From IMG/VR virus record IMGVR_UViG_3300048006_000014, positions 1 to 26,373 of that record: 26,373 nt of DNA; one strand, given 5' to 3'. The notes below the pieces were generated by a model, which ran no database searches, had not been told where the DNA came from, and worked only from the letters and a program-made list of their open reading frames with translations. Below, piece by piece: positions 17,828 through 26,373 of this stretch; positions within the stretch are counted from its first letter, which is position 1, and the number at the start of each line of letters is the position of its first letter. The translations under genes and the position numbers were made by a program. The DNA is from a virus.

Positions 17828-18754
17828 ATGGCTGATACAACTACTACAACGTTTTCCCTTGTTAAGCCTGAAGTTGGAGCTTCAGCAGATACTTGGGGAA
17901 CAAAACTAAACACAAACTTAGATACACTTGATGATTTACTAGATGGCACTACAGCAGTAAAACCTAATTTAACAGCTAGTCAATGGAAAGTAGGTGGCAC
18001 AGCAGTTACATCAACTGCGGCAGAACTCAACGTTCTTGATGGCATTCCTGCAACGCTAACAGCTACAGAACTTGGTTATGTAGATGGTGTTACAAGTGCA
18101 ATACAAACACAGCTAAACGCTATTACAGCTAATAACTGGGTAACTACAGCAAGAATTAATGCAGATGCAGTTACAGGAGCAAAAATTGCAGACGATGCAA
18201 TTAACTCAGAGCATTACACAGATGGCTCAATTGATACAGCACATATTGCAAATGATGCAGTAACAGCAGATAAACTATCTAATTCACTAGGTGATTTAAG
18301 TGGACACGGTGTTTCAGCAATTGGTTTAGATGCCGGTGATTACATCGGTTGGAGTAACAATGCTCACGTTGGCTTTGTAGTAAATGGTAATGAAGAAATG
18401 CGACTTGAAGCTGATGGTGATTTGCACGTTGATGGTGATGTTATTGCATTCTCAACTACAATCTCAGATGCAACATTAAAGTATGACATTAATCCTATTG
18501 ACCACGCTTTAGACAAAGTAGCTCAACTTACAGGTGTTACTTATAAATACCTTAAAGATGGCATGGAGTCAGCAGGTCTACTAGCACAAGATGTTGAAAA
18601 AGTTATGCCTTGTGCAGTATCAGAAAGAAAATTACCACTTCATACTGGTAACGACAATAAATACAAAACTTTAAACTACGACAATCTACACGCTTTACTG
18701 ATTGAGTCTATTAAGGAGCTTACTGCGAAAGTAGAGAAACTGGAGAAAAAATAA
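17828..18754 (+). CDS. Tail fibre with C-terminal S74 self-cleaving chaperone
   Basis: A 308-residue receptor-binding fibre. Residues 5-40 (FSLVKPEVGASADTWGTKLN) are a common virion-attachment N-terminus. Residues 58-100 hold the fibre repeats AELNVLDGI and TELGYVDGVTSAIQTQLNAI. Residues 105-155 repeat short units such as ADDAINSEHY and ANDAVTADKL, consistent with a trimeric shaft. Residues 213-308 are a peptidase S74 intramolecular chaperone: SDATLKYDI supplies the self-cleavage Ser213 and Lys218, then GLLAQDVEKVMP and LNYDNLHALLIESIKELTAK, ending in a coiled coil. The chaperone folds the trimer and is cut off. GGAG is spaced 7 bases from the ATG. The stop overlaps the next start as TAATG. 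It is short for a fibre, so the mature part would be only about 212 residues. Confidence 0.88.
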   Translation: MADTTTTTFSLVKPEVGASADTWGTKLNTNLDTLDDLLDGTTAVKPNLTASQWKVGGTAVTSTAAELNVLDGIPATLTATELGYVDGVTSAIQTQLNAITANNWVTTARINADAVTGAKIADDAINSEHYTDGSIDTAHIANDAVTADKLSNSLGDLSGHGVSAIGLDAGDYIGWSNNAHVGFVVNGNEEMRLEADGDLHVDGDVIAFSTTISDATLKYDINPIDHALDKVAQLTGVTYKYLKDGMESAGLLAQDVEKVMPCAVSERKLPLHTGNDNKYKTLNYDNLHALLIESIKELTAKVEKLEKK

Positions 18755-19695
18755 TGGCATTACAGGGTAGTGGACAAATTTCACTAAGTGATATACAAAC
18801 TGAATTTGGTGGTTCAAACCCCATAGCAATTAGTGAGTATTATGATGCCGCCTCAGGAATACCATCATCAGGTGAAATACAATTAGCGGCAGATTTTTAT
18901 GGAACTTCTAATTATCAAGCTATTACTACAACCGGTGGCTCAGTAACTACTTCAGGTGATTATAAAATTGTGACGTTTACATCATCAGGAACTTTAGGAT
19001 TTACTGCCGCATCAGGTGCGGCTAGTAACACAGTAGATTATTTAGTAGTTGGTGGTGGTGGAAATGGTGGTTCACACGCAGGAGGCGGTGGCGGTGGAAT
19101 GCGTACTGGCACAGTATCGCCTACAACAGCTAGTTACACTATTACTGTAGGTGGTGGCTCGTCAGATAGCTCTGCTGTAGGCATTACATCACAAGGTGGT
19201 GGAAATGGTGGCGGACAATCAGGTGGCTCAGGTGGCGGTGGCGCACATTCAGGCTCATATGGTTCAGGTAGCTATTATGCAGGTGGACAAGGTGGTGGTT
19301 CAGGAGCATCAGGTCAAGGCACAAATGGTGGAACTGGTGGTGGAAACAACTCATTCGCAGGAGCGGGAGGAGGAGGAAAAGGTCAATCAGGTGGTCATGG
19401 TGGACACAAAACGCATGGATTTGGTCATGACCCTAATGGATACACAGGTGGCACAGGTGGAAATGGACAATCATGGTCAGTAAATAGCACCACATATGCA
19501 GGTGGAGGAGCAGGTGGTTCAACGCATGGTTCTTCTTGGGCGCAAGTTATGTCAGGTGGTTCAGGTGGTGGCGGCAATGGTGCAGTTTCAGGTGGTACAG
19601 GGGGTACAGGGAGTGCAAATCTTGGAGGAGGAGGCGGTTCAAATGCTAATGGTGGTTCAGGCATAGTTATATTAAGATATAAATTCCAAAATTAG
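18754..19695 (+). CDS. Glycine-rich tail adhesin
   Basis: A 313-residue protein whose last two thirds (about residues 96-305) are dominated by Gly, Ser and Asn. Its N-terminus, ISLSDIQTEFGGSNPIAISE, is a pattern seen in phage fibre proteins. VDYLVVGGGGNGGSHAGGGG (from about residue 92) and the closing GGSGIVILRYKF are the marks of the Gly-rich phage domain found at fibre tips. Such tips (T-even gp38 type) can form packed polyglycine-II helices that bind receptors; whether this one does is inference. It is translationally coupled to the S74 fibre gene (TAATG), so the two probably act in one host-recognition structure. Low-complexity GGT/GGA codon runs make it prone to recombination and to misassembly. 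Confidence 0.8.
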   Translation: MALQGSGQISLSDIQTEFGGSNPIAISEYYDAASGIPSSGEIQLAADFYGTSNYQAITTTGGSVTTSGDYKIVTFTSSGTLGFTAASGAASNTVDYLVVGGGGNGGSHAGGGGGGMRTGTVSPTTASYTITVGGGSSDSSAVGITSQGGGNGGGQSGGSGGGGAHSGSYGSGSYYAGGQGGGSGASGQGTNGGTGGGNNSFAGAGGGGKGQSGGHGGHKTHGFGHDPNGYTGGTGGNGQSWSVNSTTYAGGGAGGSTHGSSWAQVMSGGSGGGGNGAVSGGTGGTGSANLGGGGGSNANGGSGIVILRYKFQN

Positions 19696-19706
19696 AGGTA
19701 TATAAA

Positions 19707-20090
19707 ATGGCACATTTTGCAGTATTAGATGAAAATAACACAGTAACTGCTGTGAACGTAATAGCTGATGCAGATTGTCTTGATGGAGAAACTGAATCAG
19801 AAGCTGTTGGTATTGCGTTTTGCGAATCTCTTTGGGGTGCAGGAACTTACAAGCAAACATCGTATAACAATAAAATAAGAAAACAATTTGCAGAAGTAGG
19901 TGGTACATATGACCCTGTTAGAAATGAATTTATAAAAATAAAACCCTATGCTTCTTGGACTTTAAACGCTACTAATGATTGGACAGCACCAATAAATAAA
20001 CCAGACGATGGCAAAATTTACGAATGGAACGAAAGTGCATATCAAGCCGACAACACAAATGGATGGGATGAAATAATCGTACCAACGTAA
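19707..20090 (+). CDS. Small accessory protein of the tail-fibre locus
   Basis: A 127-residue protein beginning MAHFAVLDENNTVTAVNVI, with GIAFCESLWGAGTYKQTSYN, GGTYDPVRNEFI and PYASWTLNATNDWTAPI segments. This layout is a recurrent small protein of marine phages, especially cyanophages, sitting beside fibre genes, without a known function that I can name. Trp/Tyr/Asn-rich strands and alternating aromatic residues suggest a small beta domain. AGAGG lies 8 bases before the ATG. It is the last gene before the oxygenase-halogenase cassette. Virion association is inferred only. Confidence 0.75.
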   Translation: MAHFAVLDENNTVTAVNVIADADCLDGETESEAVGIAFCESLWGAGTYKQTSYNNKIRKQFAEVGGTYDPVRNEFIKIKPYASWTLNATNDWTAPINKPDDGKIYEWNESAYQADNTNGWDEIIVPT

Positions 20091-20111
20091 AGTTATTCAT
20101 ATAGGAGGAAT

Positions 20112-20714
20112 ATGAAATCAACAACAGCAACTATTTCGGAACTTTTTACTGTTCCTATTTATTCTGTAGACTTAGATTTAGATTTAGATAATTTAAGAAA
20201 ATTCTGCAAATACATACAAAATCATGATGCAACTGGTAGAAAGGTTAGTAATTATGGTGGGTATCAATCAAAAGAATTACCATTAAATACTGAAGTATTA
20301 GATGAATTATTGTTAGAAGTGCATAACCATGCAAACTTTTTTGCTAGTAAATTTATAAATGAAGCTGTGCAAAAAGTTGGCAATATGTGGTTTAATGTTA
20401 ATGGTTATAAAGATTTAAACATGCCCCATAACCATCCCGATTCGCATGTATCAGGAGTTGTATATGTAGATACACCAACTAATTGTGGCAAATTATTGTT
20501 TCAACATCCTAATATGGAAACTTTGTCTTATTATGAAGAAGGAGCGAATATTACAAATAGAAATGCTTACAACTCACAGATATGGGAATTTCAACCAAAA
20601 GAAAATAGAATGTTTTTATTTCCTTCATGGGTTATACATAGCGTAAATCAAAATTTAAACAAAACAAAAAAACGATTGTCATTTGCATTTAATACAAAAC
20701 ACCATGAAAGTTAA
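20112..20714 (+). CDS. 2-oxoglutarate/Fe(II) oxygenase-like protein (first)
   Basis: A 200-residue protein of the putative phage 2OG-Fe(II) oxygenase type (2OG-FeII_Oxy_5-like), an enzyme class that hydroxylates proteins or small molecules using iron, oxygen and 2-oxoglutarate. The core is a WFNVNGYKDLNMPHNHPDSH stretch with candidate metal ligands H106 or H108 and D110, then SGVVYVDTP and FLFPSWVIHSVNQN with distal H176, and R188 (KKRLSFAFN) for the 2OG carboxylate. Three parts of the double-stranded beta-helix are thus present. The AGGAGG site sits close to the ATG (3 bases). The halogenase start lies inside this gene's 3' end, so the two are coupled. A TTAGAT triplet repeat codes for LDLDLD near residue 24. 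Substrate unknown. Confidence 0.78.
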   Translation: MKSTTATISELFTVPIYSVDLDLDLDNLRKFCKYIQNHDATGRKVSNYGGYQSKELPLNTEVLDELLLEVHNHANFFASKFINEAVQKVGNMWFNVNGYKDLNMPHNHPDSHVSGVVYVDTPTNCGKLLFQHPNMETLSYYEEGANITNRNAYNSQIWEFQPKENRMFLFPSWVIHSVNQNLNKTKKRLSFAFNTKHHES

Positions 20715-22215
20715 TTCTGTTTGTATTGTTGGTGGTGGTTCTAGTGGATGGATGATGGCACTTGCACTTAACAAAAAACTGCCTAACTTAGATGTAACTT
20801 TAATAGAATCACCTGACACTAAACCAATTGGTGTAGGTGAGTCAACAATACCATATACAGCTAATTTTTTTGTAGATGTTTTAGGTCTAAAAGAAAAAGA
20901 GTGGATGCCTAAATGCAACGCAACATATAAAGCATCAATTAAGTTTAATGACTTCTATAAAAAAGGAGAAACGTTTTATCATCCTTTTTGGACAAGAGAT
21001 GAAGGTACTTACAATGGATATGATTGGGCAATTAAACAATATTTAACGAACCTGAATAAACCTAACAATATAGATTATTACAGCTCAAGTTACATTGCTT
21101 ACCATATGAGCAAACATAATAAATTTGACAGGCTAAATGATGAATTATTTTCATACGCACATCATATGGATGCGAATAAATTTGGTGAATATTGCAAAAC
21201 TAAATTTAAAGGCAAACACATATTATCAAATGTTAAGCATGTTAAAGTTAATGGGTCAACAATTGTGTCAGTTACGATTGACAAAGAAACAATTAAAGCG
21301 GACATGTTTGTAGACTGCACAGGTTTTAAGGCATTGTTAATAGATAAATCATTACATGAGCCTTTTGTATCTTACAAAGATACACTTTTAAACGACACAG
21401 CATTAACTTGTCAAATTAAATATACAAATAAAAAAACACAAATAGAACCTTACACAGACTGTACAGCATTAAGCTCAGGATGGGCATGGAACATTCCTTT
21501 GTGGCATAGAGTAGGCTCAGGATATGTTTTTAGTAGCAAATTTCAGACATTAGAATCAGCAAAAAAAGAATACAAAAAATATTTAAAGAATAGGTTTGGT
21601 GATGACTCACTAAAAAATATTAAATTTAACACTATTAAAATTAAAACAGGAAAATATAAACGTGGGTGGGTAGGTAATTGTTTGTCTTTAACTTTAGCTT
21701 CAGGATTTATAGAGCCTTTAGAATCAACTGGTTTAGCTTTAGCATGTTATCAAATAAAAGAATTTGTAGAAACTATTTCTAATTATGAGTATTCAAGTTT
21801 TAACAAATTATTATATAACAATGAACTCGATAAAACGTACAACGAAATACATAACTTTGTTTTATTACATTATATTAATACAACACGTGAAGATAGTGAA
21901 TATTGGTCTTATTTAAAAAATAATATTGATGTACCTAATTCTGTACATTCATATCTTAACGAAGATGCTAGTAAATCTACATGGTTTCCTGAAAAATCCA
22001 AAGAATGTATTACAATAGGTTTAAACATACCTACAAAATACAAGCCAAGTAAATTAAGTTGGAATAATATTAGACTAGAATCATATACAAAAAAAGACCA
22101 AGCTTTTATATTATATGATTTAAAGTACATAGATGAGCGCAAACAATATTATGAAAACAAAATTAAAGCTATGTTTAATCTAACAGAATATTTAGAAAAT
22201 AATATATACACATAA
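20704..22215 (+). CDS. Flavin-dependent (tryptophan-type) halogenase
   Basis: A 503-residue enzyme of the tryptophan-halogenase family, which uses reduced flavin, oxygen and halide to make a hypohalous acid that a Lys delivers to an electron-rich substrate. I chose the ATG at 20704 because the flavin-binding GGGSSGW (residues 10-16) then falls at its usual N-terminal place; an in-frame ATG at 20683 would add seven residues. The diagnostic motifs are all present: GVGESTIP (43-50), the family catalytic Lys as K76 (CNATYKASIKF), WAWNIP (260-265, the WxWxIP motif) and FIEPLESTGL (335-344) with E340 and the halide-binding T342-G343. Length is near PrnA and RebH (about 530). No flavin reductase is seen nearby, so reduced flavin must come from the host. 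Cyanophages carry relatives (VirX1, an iodinating enzyme). Substrate unknown. Confidence 0.9.
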   Translation: MKVNSVCIVGGGSSGWMMALALNKKLPNLDVTLIESPDTKPIGVGESTIPYTANFFVDVLGLKEKEWMPKCNATYKASIKFNDFYKKGETFYHPFWTRDEGTYNGYDWAIKQYLTNLNKPNNIDYYSSSYIAYHMSKHNKFDRLNDELFSYAHHMDANKFGEYCKTKFKGKHILSNVKHVKVNGSTIVSVTIDKETIKADMFVDCTGFKALLIDKSLHEPFVSYKDTLLNDTALTCQIKYTNKKTQIEPYTDCTALSSGWAWNIPLWHRVGSGYVFSSKFQTLESAKKEYKKYLKNRFGDDSLKNIKFNTIKIKTGKYKRGWVGNCLSLTLASGFIEPLESTGLALACYQIKEFVETISNYEYSSFNKLLYNNELDKTYNEIHNFVLLHYINTTREDSEYWSYLKNNIDVPNSVHSYLNEDASKSTWFPEKSKECITIGLNIPTKYKPSKLSWNNIRLESYTKKDQAFILYDLKYIDERKQYYENKIKAMFNLTEYLENNIYT

Positions 22216-22224
22216 GGAGGTGTA

Positions 22225-22899
22225 ATGATAGACAGAATGTTTGAATTAAGGAGTCCAACGCCTTTATCGCCATATGCAATGAATTATAAATTTCATCTTT
22301 CTAGGTCAATTTGGGATGACGAAAAACAAATAGATACTATTAAAAAATTTTGTTTAAAAAAAGAAAAAGAAATTCTTAAACTACCATACAACAATGATGG
22401 TGGAACAGAATTAGACGATAATGCAGTTACAACAAGATTTGCAAGATATAACTTATTTGATTTTGTAGACGAATGTCCTGAACTTAAAAATCTATGGGAA
22501 GAAATACACAAACATTGGTATGAAAGAATTAAACGTGAAAATACAACTGCTTATAAAACTAAAATAGTTTGTTGGTTTAATGTTTTGCGACAAGGTGAAC
22601 AAATGGCTGACCACAGACATTCTAATAGATTTTCAGCATATTTAAGTGGTAACATACATTTAGACAATTATCACACGCATACAACCTATAGATATTTAGA
22701 TAATTGGATTGAAATAGAAAATATTAAAGGAGGATTAGTAATGTTTCCAAGTCAATTATTACATGGTACTAATAAATATCATGACAAAAATGAACGAGTT
22801 AGTATAGCATTTGATTTGCATCTTACAAATCTTAACGACATAGAAAACGAAGCTCTACAATTTGCTAGTAGAGATTTTTATAGTGAACAGAAAGATTAA
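22225..22899 (+). CDS. 2-oxoglutarate/Fe(II) oxygenase-like protein (second)
   Basis: A 224-residue protein, distinct from the 20112 gene but with the same core layout: IVCWFNVLRQGEQMADHRHS with candidate ligands H130 and H132, a strand YLSGNIHLDN, then GGLVMFPSQLLHGTNKYHDK with distal H180 and ERVSIAFDLHL with R191. The acidic metal ligand is not clear (H-x-H rather than H-x-D), so the iron site may be unusual or inactive. A strong AAGGAGGTG site precedes the ATG. It immediately follows the halogenase, which suggests the three proteins act on one substrate or pathway. The 3' end overlaps the next gene's start. Family call moderate, function inferred. Confidence 0.65.
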   Translation: MIDRMFELRSPTPLSPYAMNYKFHLSRSIWDDEKQIDTIKKFCLKKEKEILKLPYNNDGGTELDDNAVTTRFARYNLFDFVDECPELKNLWEEIHKHWYERIKRENTTAYKTKIVCWFNVLRQGEQMADHRHSNRFSAYLSGNIHLDNYHTHTTYRYLDNWIEIENIKGGLVMFPSQLLHGTNKYHDKNERVSIAFDLHLTNLNDIENEALQFASRDFYSEQKD

Positions 22900-23464
22900 C
22901 AACGCAATAGCATTTGGCATAGTAGCCGCGTTTTGGATTATTCTAGTTATTCCTGTATCTGTTTATGCTGTAGATGAAAGCTCAATTACTCAAAATACAA
23001 CATCTACGGTGACTACATCATCAGATAACACTACTACAGTCAAATCGCCTCCACCAAGTGCCATATCTCCAAACGTAGGTGGTAACAACTCAGACCTTTG
23101 TACAATATCGTCTAGTGGTGCAATGGGTACGCAAATATTTTCATTAAGTCTTGGTGCTACATATACTGAAAAAAATTGCCTGAGACTAAAAAACGCTAAG
23201 ACATTGTATGATTTTGGTATGAAAGTTGCGGCAGTTTCATTACTATGTGCTGACCCTTCCGGCGAAATCCATAGGGCGATGGCTATGGCAGGCACTCCCT
23301 GCCCCTATATGGGAAAAATAGGAAGTGAAGCAACTGCGGCATGGGAAGTCCATACAGAAGACATACCAGTACCAACACGTGAACACGAAAAATCTGCACA
23401 GGAGAAAAGAGATGATGCAATCAAGATTATGGGTGCTATCGCTTCTGCTTTTTTGTTCTTCTAG
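22883..23464 (+). CDS. Secreted protein with four cysteines (cassette gene 1)
   Basis: A 193-residue protein with a GTG start at 22883; an in-frame TTG at 22862 would put extra residues before the signal peptide. Residues 1-29 (basic NRKINN, then a hydrophobic stretch ending VSVYA) form a signal peptide, with cleavage likely after A29. A Thr/Ser/Pro-rich linker follows (residues 33-65), then a compact domain with C73, C99, C122 and C140 (CTISSSGAMGTQIFSLSLG, then CLRLKNAKTLYDFGMKVAAV and AGTPCPYMGKIG). The C-terminus is hydrophobic (MGAIASAFLFF), possibly a membrane anchor. It overlaps the upstream oxygenase gene by 17 bases and the next gene by 53. Similar proteins recur in marine phages; function unknown. 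Confidence 0.7.
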   Translation: MNRKINNAIAFGIVAAFWIILVIPVSVYAVDESSITQNTTSTVTTSSDNTTTVKSPPPSAISPNVGGNNSDLCTISSSGAMGTQIFSLSLGATYTEKNCLRLKNAKTLYDFGMKVAAVSLLCADPSGEIHRAMAMAGTPCPYMGKIGSEATAAWEVHTEDIPVPTREHEKSAQEKRDDAIKIMGAIASAFLFF

Positions 23465-24275
23465 CATACAAGCTTACAGTTTCGGTTACACACCTAACGT
23501 AGCTATTAGTGGTTTAGAATGGACAATGACTCCTACTTATCTTGGTGCTAATGGCATTAATGGTATGGATGTATCAGGTGTCACTTACAAGTACACTCCT
23601 ATAAAAAACAAAGAGGATGACTACGTTGTTACACTTGAAAATGACAAAATAGGTGGTGGTTATGTGTTTCAAGACAAACAAGACTGGTCACAGCGTGAAG
23701 GTGGTATTGAGGTAAGAAGAACTATCGCCTTGCCATATACTCCACTTGCTGTTTTTGGTGATGGTAGATTAAAACAAGAAGGCACAGGCAGTATAGAAAA
23801 TGCAGATGTTAGATACATATACAGATTTGACCCTTGCTTTGACCCACAAAGTGACCCAAACTGTCCGGGATATAAAAAACCTAAACCACCACCATTACCT
23901 GAGATACCTGATTACGATGCTTTGCAAGATGAGTCAGTAGCTATTGCACAGGCTGAAACAGACAGAAAATTGTTAGATGATGAACAAGCTGAAAAAGAAG
24001 AAGAGGAAGAAGAGGAAGAGGAATCTTTAGAATTTATGTTAGCTGATGTTCAAAACGCGTTGACTATAGCTAATGAAATAGCACAGTCAGTCATACTACA
24101 ACAATTAAACAATGTAACTAATTTAACAAACTACTATGTGTCTACGATACCTGACAATTACTACCCTGATGCTGTAGCTTTACAAGGTGGTACGATAGTG
24201 GATAATAGGAGAGCATTAAGGAGCTTATCGCAGGATGCGAGAATGAATGAGATGATAGAGGAGCAATACAAATGA
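23412..24275 (+). CDS. Secreted protein with acidic coiled tail (cassette gene 2)
   Basis: A 287-residue protein. I chose the ATG at 23412 because AGGAG lies 7 bases upstream and a signal peptide (MMQSRLWVLSLLLFCSSSIQ-A) then starts the protein; a longer frame open to 23325 would bury it. The mature part opens with a beta-type domain to about residue 155: DWSQREGGIEVRRTIALPYT, PLAVFGDG, GSIENADVRYIYRFDPCFDP and PNCPGYKKP, with C142 and C151 as the only mature cysteines. A proline-rich hinge, a run of nine Glu (196-204) and a helical end follow. The segment ALPYTPLAVFGDG is recurrent in marine phages, but I know of no function. It overlaps the previous gene by 53 bases and the next by four (ATGA). 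Confidence 0.7.
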   Translation: MMQSRLWVLSLLLFCSSSIQAYSFGYTPNVAISGLEWTMTPTYLGANGINGMDVSGVTYKYTPIKNKEDDYVVTLENDKIGGGYVFQDKQDWSQREGGIEVRRTIALPYTPLAVFGDGRLKQEGTGSIENADVRYIYRFDPCFDPQSDPNCPGYKKPKPPPLPEIPDYDALQDESVAIAQAETDRKLLDDEQAEKEEEEEEEEESLEFMLADVQNALTIANEIAQSVILQQLNNVTNLTNYYVSTIPDNYYPDAVALQGGTIVDNRRALRSLSQDARMNEMIEEQYK

Positions 24276-24769
24276 AAAAACTATTAATCGCACTTAGCTT
24301 CATACTTTGTGCAACACCAATTATAGCCGCAGATATTAATGGCACAGTAGAATCGAGATGCACAGTAGCGACAACTGTCGATGGCAAATATGGCAATCCG
24401 AACGCATATACGCTGACAACAGACCCTGCTAGTAATGGTCAAGTACCTGTAATTCGCTTTGATACAACCCTAGCCAATGCCTATTATGCTCAGGTGTCAT
24501 TCCCTACTAGCTTTAGCTCAAGTCCATCATTGTCTGACAATGTAACGTGGACTGGTGCTGTGTCTGTAAAAGCTACAGGTGCAGATGGCATGAGCGGCTA
24601 TCAGACTGCATCAACAACTACAAATGGTGGTGCAACAAGACAGTACGCACTTAGCGTTGCAGGTAGTGTTTGGCTACAGTCAACGTCAATAGCTGTATAT
24701 GGTGGTAACAGAGCGTTTCCGGGTGGTGCATATAAATCAGTAGTATTAGCTGAATGCGTAGCTCAGTAG
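24272..24769 (+). CDS. Secreted beta-sandwich protein, pilin-like in layout (cassette gene 3)
   Basis: A 165-residue protein with a clear signal peptide (KKLLIALSFILCATPIIA, cleavage after about A19). The mature part is Ser/Thr/Val/Gly-rich with alternating strands and exactly two cysteines, C30 near its N-terminus and C162 near its end (DINGTVESRCTV and VVLAECVAQ), as in a disulfide that ties the two ends of a small beta sandwich. That layout recalls chaperone-usher pilins and spore-coat U domains, but no signature confirms it. GAGGAG lies 8 bases before the ATG, and the start overlaps the previous stop. Relatives occur in marine phages. A pilin-like role is inference. Confidence 0.6.
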   Translation: MKKLLIALSFILCATPIIAADINGTVESRCTVATTVDGKYGNPNAYTLTTDPASNGQVPVIRFDTTLANAYYAQVSFPTSFSSSPSLSDNVTWTGAVSVKATGADGMSGYQTASTTTNGGATRQYALSVAGSVWLQSTSIAVYGGNRAFPGGAYKSVVLAECVAQ

Positions 24770-25128
24770 CACTATGTTTGTTACTGTTTAATTACGCAGT
24801 ACATAGTCACGAGCAAACACCTACATATCCAAAGTGGACAGTTAGTGGAGTTAGTGAAGTAAAGAAGACACAAATCAGGTTGTGGAACTCTCGACCTGAT
24901 ATAGAGTATTATGAGATAGGAGTATTCGATGGGGATTGGCAACCAATACCCTTTGTTACAGCTTATAAGATTCTCCCTGTCGAATACTTGCAAGAAGTTA
25001 AGATTGATATATACATTAGGGAAAGTAACATAGCAGAAGCTAGATATGTCTGTTCTTTATCTAAATTAAGGAGTAACGATGAGAGTCAAACTTTGTTAGC
25101 TACTAGGATATGTTCAAAATTCAAATAA
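24754..25128 (+). CDS. Small secreted protein with two cysteines (cassette gene 4)
   Basis: A 124-residue protein. Residues 1-18 (MRSSVALCLLLFNYAVHS) are a signal peptide. The mature part is rich in beta strands (TQIRLWNSRPDIEYYEIGVF and VKIDIYIRES) and has exactly two cysteines, C100 (RYVCSLSK) and C120 (ATRICSK). The immunoglobulin-like strand pattern beside a pilin-like neighbour makes a periplasmic chaperone-type fold conceivable, but it is much smaller than a PapD chaperone and lacks a recognisable motif. It overlaps the previous gene by 16 bases and the next by 19, with no clear ribosome site, so it depends on coupling. Confidence 0.65.
   Translation: MRSSVALCLLLFNYAVHSHEQTPTYPKWTVSGVSEVKKTQIRLWNSRPDIEYYEIGVFDGDWQPIPFVTAYKILPVEYLQEVKIDIYIRESNIAEARYVCSLSKLRSNDESQTLLATRICSKFK
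25079..25099 (+). CDS. Six-codon mini-ORF with a strong ribosome site
   Basis: AAGGAG (25068-25073) is placed 5 bases before an ATG that encodes MRVKLC and then stops, 10 bases before the ATG of the next secreted gene. It lies inside the 24754 gene in another frame. It may be a ribosome-loading leader that feeds re-initiation at 25110, whose own start has only a poorly spaced AGGA. It could also be a chance match; no sequence evidence beyond spacing. Confidence 0.3.
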   Translation: MRVKLC

Positions 25129-25541
25129 AATGTTTGCTGTTGCTAATGCTTAGTACACAAGTCATAGCTAACAGTAGCACATCCTTAAACCTACAATTAC
25201 CGAGTGGTGGCTCATCTTTTGGTACAGATAGTATTAAAGCAGGTGACTTAGACTGCTCAAACAGCATAGGAGGGTCAACAGTATTTGATGTCGGCATGAC
25301 TGGCATTGTTAATAACGCTGTAACACCTATCATTGGCAAAGAAGACCCAAACAACCCTGAAGCAAAACAAATAGGTGTCTATGCAAGAATTGTTATACCA
25401 CTTGATGCACCAAGAGAACGTATAAACTGTAACACGCTCTATCAACTTGAGCTACAAAGACGTAGGCTAGAGGTTGAAAAGTTGCGCCAAGAAATAGAAC
25501 TGTTAAAATCTATGCAACAAGGAGATGGTTTTGACAACTGA
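25110..25541 (+). CDS. Small secreted protein with helical end (cassette gene 5)
   Basis: A 143-residue protein. Residues 1-20 (basic MFKIQIK, hydrophobic CLLLLMLSTQVIA) are a signal peptide. The mature part has a Gly/Ser-rich beta region, then DCSNSIGGSTVFDVGMTGIV, VYARIVIPLDAPRERINC and a charged C-terminal helix (YQLELQRRRLEVEKLRQEIE) able to form a coiled coil. C49 and C107 are its only mature cysteines. It overlaps the previous gene and carries the next gene's ribosome site in its own 3' end. The last of five secreted proteins in a row; recurrent in marine phages, function unknown to me. Confidence 0.7.
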   Translation: MFKIQIKCLLLLMLSTQVIANSSTSLNLQLPSGGSSFGTDSIKAGDLDCSNSIGGSTVFDVGMTGIVNNAVTPIIGKEDPNNPEAKQIGVYARIVIPLDAPRERINCNTLYQLELQRRRLEVEKLRQEIELLKSMQQGDGFDN

Positions 25542-26001
25542 TTTAGGTGAAAAGGTAGCAGAAATAGAAGGCTTGGTCGATAAACGACTAAAGCTAGGAA
25601 GTTTAAGGTTTACATACACTCAGTTAGTAGGTGCATTTGCTCTGCTTTCTACGATTGTGGGTTCACTCTATGGAGGGTTCTTAATGTATCAAAAAGTTGA
25701 AGGAATCGCAAATTTGGACTTAGGAGCAATACAGGCATCTATGGAGGCTACGTCAGCAGATGTACTTAGAGTAGAAGAAGTAGCTAAAGAAATTAAGGTA
25801 GAACTTAAAGAAGACCTTGCTAGATTACGCACAGCACAATATAATCTTGAGAATAGGATTGATTCTAAACTTCAATCTATAGATGTACGCATTACTACAA
25901 TGGACAATAAGCTTGATAAATTTGACATACAGTTAGACGATACAGAAGAGAAACTAATGAAGCGAATACAGCAGTCATTAGACAACCCACTAAGTAACTG
26001 A
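25531..26001 (+). CDS. Membrane-anchored coiled-coil protein
   Basis: A 156-residue protein. The TTG at 25531 is preferred: GGAG (25521-25524) is spaced 6 bases from it, whereas it touches the in-frame ATG at 25525. One transmembrane helix (YTQLVGAFALLSTIVGSLYG then GFLMYQ, near residues 28-52) is followed by about 100 residues of charged heptad-like helix (EVAKEIKVELKEDLARLRTA, DSKLQSIDVRITTMDNKLDK). A short N-terminal helix lies before the membrane helix. The topology resembles an inner-membrane spanin or a holin accessory protein, but no catalytic or family motif is seen. It is placed between the secreted cassette and small membrane genes, compatible with a lysis or envelope role. Function inferred. 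Confidence 0.7.
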   Translation: MTTDLGEKVAEIEGLVDKRLKLGSLRFTYTQLVGAFALLSTIVGSLYGGFLMYQKVEGIANLDLGAIQASMEATSADVLRVEEVAKEIKVELKEDLARLRTAQYNLENRIDSKLQSIDVRITTMDNKLDKFDIQLDDTEEKLMKRIQQSLDNPLSN

Positions 26002-26017
26002 TAACATAGGAGATATT

Positions 26018-26062
26018 ATGCCAAAACGCGGAAGAAAAAAACCACCAGTAAAGAGGTACTGA
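26018..26062 (+). CDS. 14-residue basic micropeptide
   Basis: A 14-codon reading frame, MPKRGRKKPPVKRY, preceded by a strong AGGAG site spaced 6 bases, in the short space between two membrane-protein genes. Its TGA overlaps the next ATG (TGATG), and its last codons contain the AGAGG ribosome site of that gene. Seven of 14 residues are Lys or Arg. It is below usual gene-length cut-offs and would normally be missed. It may be a real peptide or a coupling device that loads ribosomes for the next gene; the strong site and the exact overlap argue that it is translated. Confidence 0.65.
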   Translation: MPKRGRKKPPVKRY

Positions 26063-26250
26063 TGACAGCAAAACAACAAGCACAGCTCGATAGACACGAG
26101 AAACAGATTGCCGACCTTTATAAAGACGTAAGAGAAATAAAGAACATGAACTTAAAATTTATGTCTATGGGTAAAGGATTATTAATAGGCTTTGCGGTTA
26201 TGGTAGCGGCTGATATTGGTATTGGCGAAATAATTATGAAACTTTTATGA
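26062..26250 (+). CDS. Small coiled-coil membrane protein, holin-like topology
   Basis: A 62-residue protein with a charged N-terminal helix (KQQAQLDRHEKQIADLYKDV then REIKN) and one C-terminal transmembrane helix (MGKGLLIGFAVMVAADIGIG). That layout, helix first and membrane segment last, resembles XhlA-type haemolysin/holin proteins, but it is short and no conserved motif proves it. Translation is coupled to the micropeptide (TGATG) and to the next gene (ATGA). No endolysin is visible in this window, so the lysis assignment stays open. Confidence 0.65.
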   Translation: MTAKQQAQLDRHEKQIADLYKDVREIKNMNLKFMSMGKGLLIGFAVMVAADIGIGEIIMKLL

Positions 26251-26373
26251 TTGCTTTTCTTACAAACATAGCACCGATAGGCTTAGGCTTCATTGCTAAA
26301 TTGTATGCACTCAAGAGTCAAGCGGCTTCTGACCAACAGAAGCTAATGATAGAAAATTTACAAGCTCGTAACG
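26247..26373 (+). CDS. Small membrane protein (3' partial)
   Basis: The ATG at 26247 overlaps the previous stop (ATGA) and the frame stays open to the right edge, showing 42 residues. It opens with a hydrophobic segment (MIAFLTNIAPIGLGFIAKLY) followed by a polar helix (ALKSQAASDQQKLMIENLQA). One membrane helix and a cytosolic or periplasmic coiled segment are likely. It continues the run of small membrane proteins; function unknown. Confidence 0.6.
   Translation, partial: MIAFLTNIAPIGLGFIAKLYALKSQAASDQQKLMIENLQARN

Follow-up and report, generated by a model that had tools for sequence, protein, structure and literature searches.

Halogenase and 2-oxoglutarate (2OG) genes of cyanophages have been catalogued as metabolic genes since about 2010, and metabolic or nitrogen-sensing, DNA-repair and antibiotic-related roles have been proposed for them (PMC2984593, PMC3037559, PMC9964418, PMC9602691). 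The viral halogenase VirX1 uses K79 as its catalytic lysine and has a large and accessible active site, and no biosynthetic cluster is listed for it in the review (PMC8407142). In phage tails, glycine-rich domains carry the receptor-recognition loops or tips of Pam3 gp24 and T2-type gp38, and the Pam3 chaperone covers the recognition loops during assembly (PMC9608196, PMC12892980). Here we analyse a 26,373-base virus record of IMG/VR (IMGVR_UViG_3300048006_000014), the whole of which is termed the window. It carries a halogenase gene between the genes of two 2OG/Fe(II)-oxygenase-like proteins, A and B, downstream of a tail fibre gene, a Gly-rich adhesin-like gene and a small companion gene (Table 1). 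We consider it fairly probable that the three enzyme genes form an exchangeable cassette for post-translational tailoring of the receptor-binding tip. In loci for phage virion modification and for bacterial adhesin or flagellin glycosylation, the tailoring enzymes are encoded beside the surface protein that is modified. Glycosylation loci attach sugars, whereas the chemistry proposed for this cassette is halogenation, hydroxylation and sometimes sulfation.

Judged by its family and motifs, the central protein is a flavin-dependent halogenase (FDH) of the same viral clade, and with the same motifs, as VirX1 and the cyanophage prnA halogenases (Syn10, 6qgm, phrog_2928). Its longest open reading frame (ORF) opens at TTG 20683; the start is likely ATG 20704, giving a protein of 503 amino acids. 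The motifs are intact, namely GGGSSG (GxGxxG) at position 10, GVGEST, ATYK with K76, GWAWNIP at 259 and EPLEST with E340. Residues K76 and E340 are invariant across 16 aligned viral halogenases, and we take their motifs to be the equivalents of those of the catalytic lysine K79 and the active-site glutamate E346 of PrnA. The top match in the PDB is VirX1 (6qgm, E 1.4e-82), with an identity of 33%. A quick maximum-likelihood tree with support from the Shimodaira-Hasegawa-like approximate likelihood ratio test (SH-aLRT) placed both proteins in a 48-row clade (support 100) of 47 viral proteins and one protein from a Myxococcota metagenome-assembled genome, and the 29 other sampled cellular halogenases fell outside it. 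Related loci and contigs compared with the window are labelled L002 to L172; the Myxococcota contig, L172, holds the lone cellular-labelled halogenase of the viral clade and may be a prophage or a binned virus.

Like the window halogenase, VirX1 (L003:8001-9593) is encoded behind Gly-rich adhesin genes and a companion and beside 2OG genes, following two tandem Gly-rich genes, a companion of family c0 and a second halogenase. Unlike VirX1, the window halogenase sits in its own well-supported branch, a trio with L092 and L093 (60% identical) that has 100% support inside the viral clade. The window phage also carries an SU10-like capsid protein, the capsid protein of its relative L066 matching SU10_MCP, whereas the cyanophage carriers of prnA are T4-like. 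A preference for iodination is a trait of VirX1.

When IMG/VR was queried with an alignment, 80 viral halogenase loci were recovered; scans with the single sequences of the halogenase and of protein A gave no matches. Together with isolate phages and backbone relatives, the query loci yielded 102 viral halogenases at 90% dereplication, and linkage was counted over the 61 of these for which the upstream sequence spanned 5.5 kb or more. A Gly-rich adhesin-like ORF, defined by at least 18% Gly and a length of 100 amino acids or more, precedes 38 of the 61 halogenases on their own strand at a distance of up to about 6 kb; 52 have a 2OG gene within 3 kb and 36 a companion protein (phrog_7759, c0 or c3). 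Gly-rich ORFs lay upstream on the same strand in 112 cases and elsewhere in 20. In contrast, only 4 of 70 cellular halogenase loci had 2OG matches and none of the 70 had matches to the adhesin or companion hidden Markov models (HMMs), a control that is somewhat favourable, since viral sequences served as the training set of the HMMs. Of nine complete cyanophage genomes (152-200 kb), eight have a Gly_rich_2 domain 471-710 bp from a halogenase. Random rotation of the nine genomes gave an expectation of 0.46 genomes and a P of about 3e-10, which overstates independence because the nine are related; a stronger point than the P value is that the arrangement recurs in phages that differ in backbone, companion family and halogenase branch. 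An earlier sequence-only reading of the window had described the three genes as a possible tailoring pathway, to be checked by their joint presence in other marine phages. The counts bear this out, and the relatives do not display the unlinked, independent occurrence that would speak against it. The conserved motifs and the linkage across dozens of phages indicate, at the level of sequence, that the cassette is more than chance.

The likeliest alternative is that the substrate is a host metabolite or signal, for instance with halogenation of free tryptophan or modulation of 2-oxoglutarate, and that the tail location is only an accessory-gene hotspot. This corresponds to the published view, in which prnA serves antibiotic protection and the 2OG genes serve 2OG/NtcA modulation, DNA repair or host reprogramming (PMC2984593, PMC3037559, PMC9964418, PMC9602691), and it agrees with the halogenation of many small aromatics by VirX1 (PMC8407142) and with the occurrence of 2OG genes outside the cassette. 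However, a hotspot alone does not account for the recurrent place directly behind the Gly-rich adhesin in phages of diverse backbones, companions and halogenase branches, nor for the two relatives (L044 and L049) in which nothing lies between adhesin and halogenase, and the cellular halogenases show no adhesin linkage. The sequence-only reading had remarked on the lack of a biosynthetic core gene nearby. Indeed, no core of the nonribosomal peptide synthetase (NRPS), polyketide synthase (PKS), ribosomally synthesised and post-translationally modified peptide (RiPP) or prn type, and no flavin reductase, was recognised among the window ORFs scanned with Pfam and PHROGs, the record being probably a fragment. 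We therefore regard a metabolite substrate as unlikely. Because of the viral linkage set against the cellular control, a virion protein, the Gly-rich adhesin especially, is the favoured candidate of the two kinds of substrate that the sequence-only reading had offered.

The borders of the cassette were obtained from 80 IMG/VR backbone relatives retrieved with the window capsid protein, and they mark the three genes as one exchangeable island. The GC content of the three enzyme genes is 0.286-0.290, compared with 0.365-0.469 just upstream and 0.39-0.44 just downstream. Nucleotide alignment with L032 and L034 extends to 19994 and 20010, respectively, ending in the small companion gene before protein A, and restarts at 22884 in both; that with L014 and L039 restarts at 22889, at the end of the protein B gene. 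In the relatives the slot holds different enzymes: five 2OG genes (L014), a sulfotransferase plus 2OG (L033 and L039), JmjC-like genes, assigned as cluster mates of a JmjC_2 protein, together with DUF6445 genes (L032), or an Asp/Asn beta-hydroxylase (L080). The JmjC, Asp/Asn hydroxylase and sulfotransferase families include modifiers of proteins or peptides. The slot of L044 and L049 is occupied by halogenases of another branch than that of the window (98% and 100% SH-aLRT); thus the slot has been filled by different halogenases. A gap of 28 bp separates the adhesin gene of L049 from the halogenase, near which no 2OG gene was found, and in L044 the adhesin and halogenase ORFs overlap by 12 bp. 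Sulfotransferase-like genes (PF13469/PF00685, phrog_27463) lie behind a Gly-rich adhesin at L033:13700-14467, L039:13567 and L086:13905 and in L119, L163 and L171, which suggests sulfated tips. Taken together, the families of the slot enzymes, the role of Gly-rich tips, the weak Pam3 match of the adhesin and the open active site of VirX1 favour an already made tip protein as the probable target.

We also considered the three genes as an obligate trio, which was rejected, as relatives carry a halogenase alone, oxygenases alone or 1-10 oxygenases. The sequence-only reading had suggested that the three enzymes may modify one substrate. The conserved linkage upholds the joint occurrence, whereas a single shared substrate is not required, because L049 has a halogenase without oxygenases and many relatives have only oxygenases.

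Less likely than a metabolite substrate, and improbable in our view, is the modification of the fibre with its S74 domain, the companion or another tail part in place of the Gly-rich adhesin. The frequent presence of the companion at the halogenase loci would fit this, as would five relatives (L023, L024, L030, L047 and L083) in which 2OG genes directly follow a non-Gly-rich fibre and a companion. On the other hand, the halogenases of L044 and L049 stand directly behind the adhesin with no recognised companion, and a Gly-rich adhesin is present in each of the three backbone relatives that carry a halogenase after dereplication (3 of 18 Gly-rich against 0 of 8 non-Gly loci, not significant). 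Tips other than Gly-rich ones may also be tailored, because collar-type relatives carry 2OG genes too. In L023, L024, L027, L030, L047 and L082-L087, the fibre ends in a collar-like tip with many HTH/HSH repeats in place of a Gly-rich adhesin, and 2OG genes are present as well.

The flanking proteins A and B have putative metal ligands H106, H108 and H176 plus R188, and H130, H132 and H180 plus R191, respectively. Both read HxH...H...R, with the distal arginine for 2OG conserved, and lack the canonical HxD/E...H metal triad; in place of the Asp/Glu of canonical 2OG enzymes, the third metal position is His in 138 of 148 PF13759-like proteins from these loci (L002-L171). Other oxygenase families of the same cassettes retain HxD/E...H...R. 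The earlier naming as 2OG/Fe(II) oxygenase-like thus holds for the PF13759 family and for the fold of A and is refined at the metal triad. Because HxH...H...R replaces HxD/E...H...R, '2OG hydroxylase' is a homology-based name, and the metal use and reaction of A and B are therefore putative. The AlphaFold2 model of A has a predicted local distance difference test (pLDDT) score of 93.6. Its fold neighbours are the uncharacterised 3bvc (Z 22.3) and 2rg4 (Z about 22), followed at a Z of about 17 by prolyl hydroxylases, namely P4H with EF-Tu, PHD2 (Z 17.4) and a viral collagen prolyl hydroxylase. The double-stranded beta-helix fold, common to PF13759 proteins (TIGR02466-like; 3bvc, 2rg4) and prolyl hydroxylases (PPHD, PHD2, vCPH), is assigned to A from the predicted structure and to B from the PF13759 match alone.

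The proposed substrate, the adhesin, consists of 32% Gly with the Gly-rich motifs in its C-terminal half, and its gene adjoins the tail fibre gene; its PF21722 score of 23.0 bits is slightly below the cut-off of 24.3. With regard to the polyglycine II lattice of Pam3 and gp38, the only PDB profile matches of the adhesin are weak ones to Pam3 tail-fibre chains across the Gly-rich part (E 0.18-0.20). The names 'fibre' and 'adhesin' are probable assignments by homology and context. The phrog_7759 companion sits between adhesin and enzymes in other phages as well, where c0 or c3 proteins may instead fill the slot. Families c0 and phrog_7759 had no meaningful match in the PDB, and 'chaperone' is used for the companion because of its position and by analogy with Pam3 gp25. 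As in the window, a Gly-rich gene behind the fibre and then a small possible chaperone are found for gp38 of T2, S16 and PP01 and for gp24/gp25 of Pam3. We found no report of enzymatic modification of the Gly-rich tips of gp38 or Pam3, and in this the proposal for the window differs.

Based on these comparisons, we propose the following order of events. The S74 fibre and the Gly-rich adhesin would be made first, with the small companion as the probable chaperone. The halogenase would turn reduced FAD (flavin adenine dinucleotide, probably supplied by a host reductase), O2 and halide into hypohalous acid, which would pass via K76 to an electron-rich side chain of the tip (Trp, Tyr or His). The side chains oxidised by the two 2OG-type enzymes would be those of this tip protein or of its partner, and the altered chemistry of the exposed loops would change receptor binding or stability. 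Phages exchange the enzyme set at the tip locus.

Several observations weigh against tip tailoring. For 23 of the 61 viral halogenases, the 6 kb upstream contain no Gly-rich ORF on the same strand, three of these having one nearby on the opposite strand, and cyanophage genomes have 2OG genes at other places as well. In the backbone group, 2OG genes follow fibres without a Gly-rich adhesin too (5 of 8 non-Gly loci, 15 of 18 Gly-rich loci); because collar-type fibres carry them as well, the association of tailoring enzymes with the Gly-rich adhesin is not significant there (Fisher p 0.33). The fold comparison of the model of A cannot separate protein from small-molecule hydroxylases, since the small-molecule enzyme SnoN (Z 17.0) ties with the prolyl hydroxylases. 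The AlphaFold2 model of the adhesin (pLDDT 39) was discarded and gave no support. Trp and Tyr are no richer in adhesins with a downstream halogenase (p 0.67 each). His and Cys are raised (p 0.01 and 0.005), a rise that is not used as support because it is lineage-confounded and involves only 12 negatives.

The weakest alternative, and a very improbable one, is a late change of the host surface (receptor, lipopolysaccharide or outer-membrane protein) that blocks re-adsorption of progeny or superinfection: the cassette adjoins the receptor-binding module, could be exchanged along with receptor specificity and precedes genes with secretion-type N termini, but the three enzymes have no obvious export signal or surface-targeting feature by eye, and their FAD- and Fe/2OG-dependent chemistry requires cytoplasmic cofactors.

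Beyond the window, it is quite possible, though we hold this more tentatively than tip tailoring in the window itself, that several marine phage lineages rewrite the side chains of Gly-rich tips via an exchangeable, modular set of peptidyl halogenases, 2OG-type oxygenases, JmjC enzymes and sulfotransferases, making their recognition of hosts dependent on non-coded residues, and that VirX1-type halogenases modify tail adhesins. If so, host recognition by marine phages would rest partly on halogenated or hydroxylated residues that are invisible in sequence, with consequences for the prediction of host range, the annotation of 'auxiliary metabolic genes' and the discovery of protein-halogenating biocatalysts. 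The linkage offers a specific candidate substrate, the Gly-rich tail tip, for the halogenase/2OG set of cyanophages, VirX1 included. Each gene is a new member of a known family, whereas the cassette with its proposed job is a new form of phage self-modification; no earlier proposal of the Gly-rich tip linkage or of tip tailoring was found in the open-licence papers searched.

Table 1. Positions in the window of the tail genes, the cassette genes and the exchangeable island.
Feature	Position	Strand	Basis
Tail fibre with C-terminal S74 peptidase/chaperone domain	17828..18754	+	PF13884 E 2.5e-15; many PHROG tail-fibre families, best E 4.6e-32
Gly-rich probable receptor-binding adhesin, proposed substrate	18754..19695	+	PF21722 Gly_rich_2 E 8.9e-5; phrog_2295 E 4.5e-30
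Companion protein (MAHFAxLDxxN...), proposed tip chaperone/cap by position	19707..20090	+	phrog_7759 E 2.3e-37
2OG/Fe(II)-oxygenase-like protein A, 200 amino acids	20112..20714	+	PF13759 E 1.8e-21
Flavin-dependent halogenase of the viral clade, relative of VirX1	20704..22215	+	PF04820 E 1.7e-101; phrog_2928 E 8.9e-119
2OG/Fe(II)-oxygenase-like protein B, 224 amino acids	22225..22899	+	PF13759 E 7.8e-12; phrog_81 E 9.1e-20
Exchangeable island	20010..22884	.	DNA homology to backbone relatives ends and restarts at the borders; GC drop

The genes are tightly packed, as the sequence-only reading had stated for the halogenase and its two neighbours. The halogenase ATG overlaps the protein A gene by 11 bp, and the protein B gene, which has a GGAGG-type ribosome site, starts 9 bp past the halogenase stop. 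Upstream, fibre, adhesin and companion genes are separated by short gaps or overlaps, the adhesin ORF beginning on the final base of the fibre gene. Searches for promoters and terminators gave no convincing signal, with counts that did not exceed shuffled expectation, and no Rfam RNA was found. A portal and a major capsid protein were also matched by PHROGs.

Some large phage contigs (L106, L108, L112, L136 and L159) have 3-5 halogenase genes each, either consecutive or with 2OG genes between them; among these are divergent forms of about 400 amino acids that may lack part of the fold. A further family, c12 (230-290 amino acids, no Pfam match), is often tandem and interspersed with halogenases and oxygenases (L007:9610-10476, L106, L108, L112, L130 and L152), and is possibly another tailoring enzyme. 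Downstream of the cassette, at 22862-26250 of the window, lies a run of small proteins (d1-d7) with hydrophobic or secretion-type N termini. These proteins are conserved throughout the backbone group, and most belong to no known family. The block d2-d7 is inverted in L049 (7356-14346) relative to positions 22967-26373 of the window.

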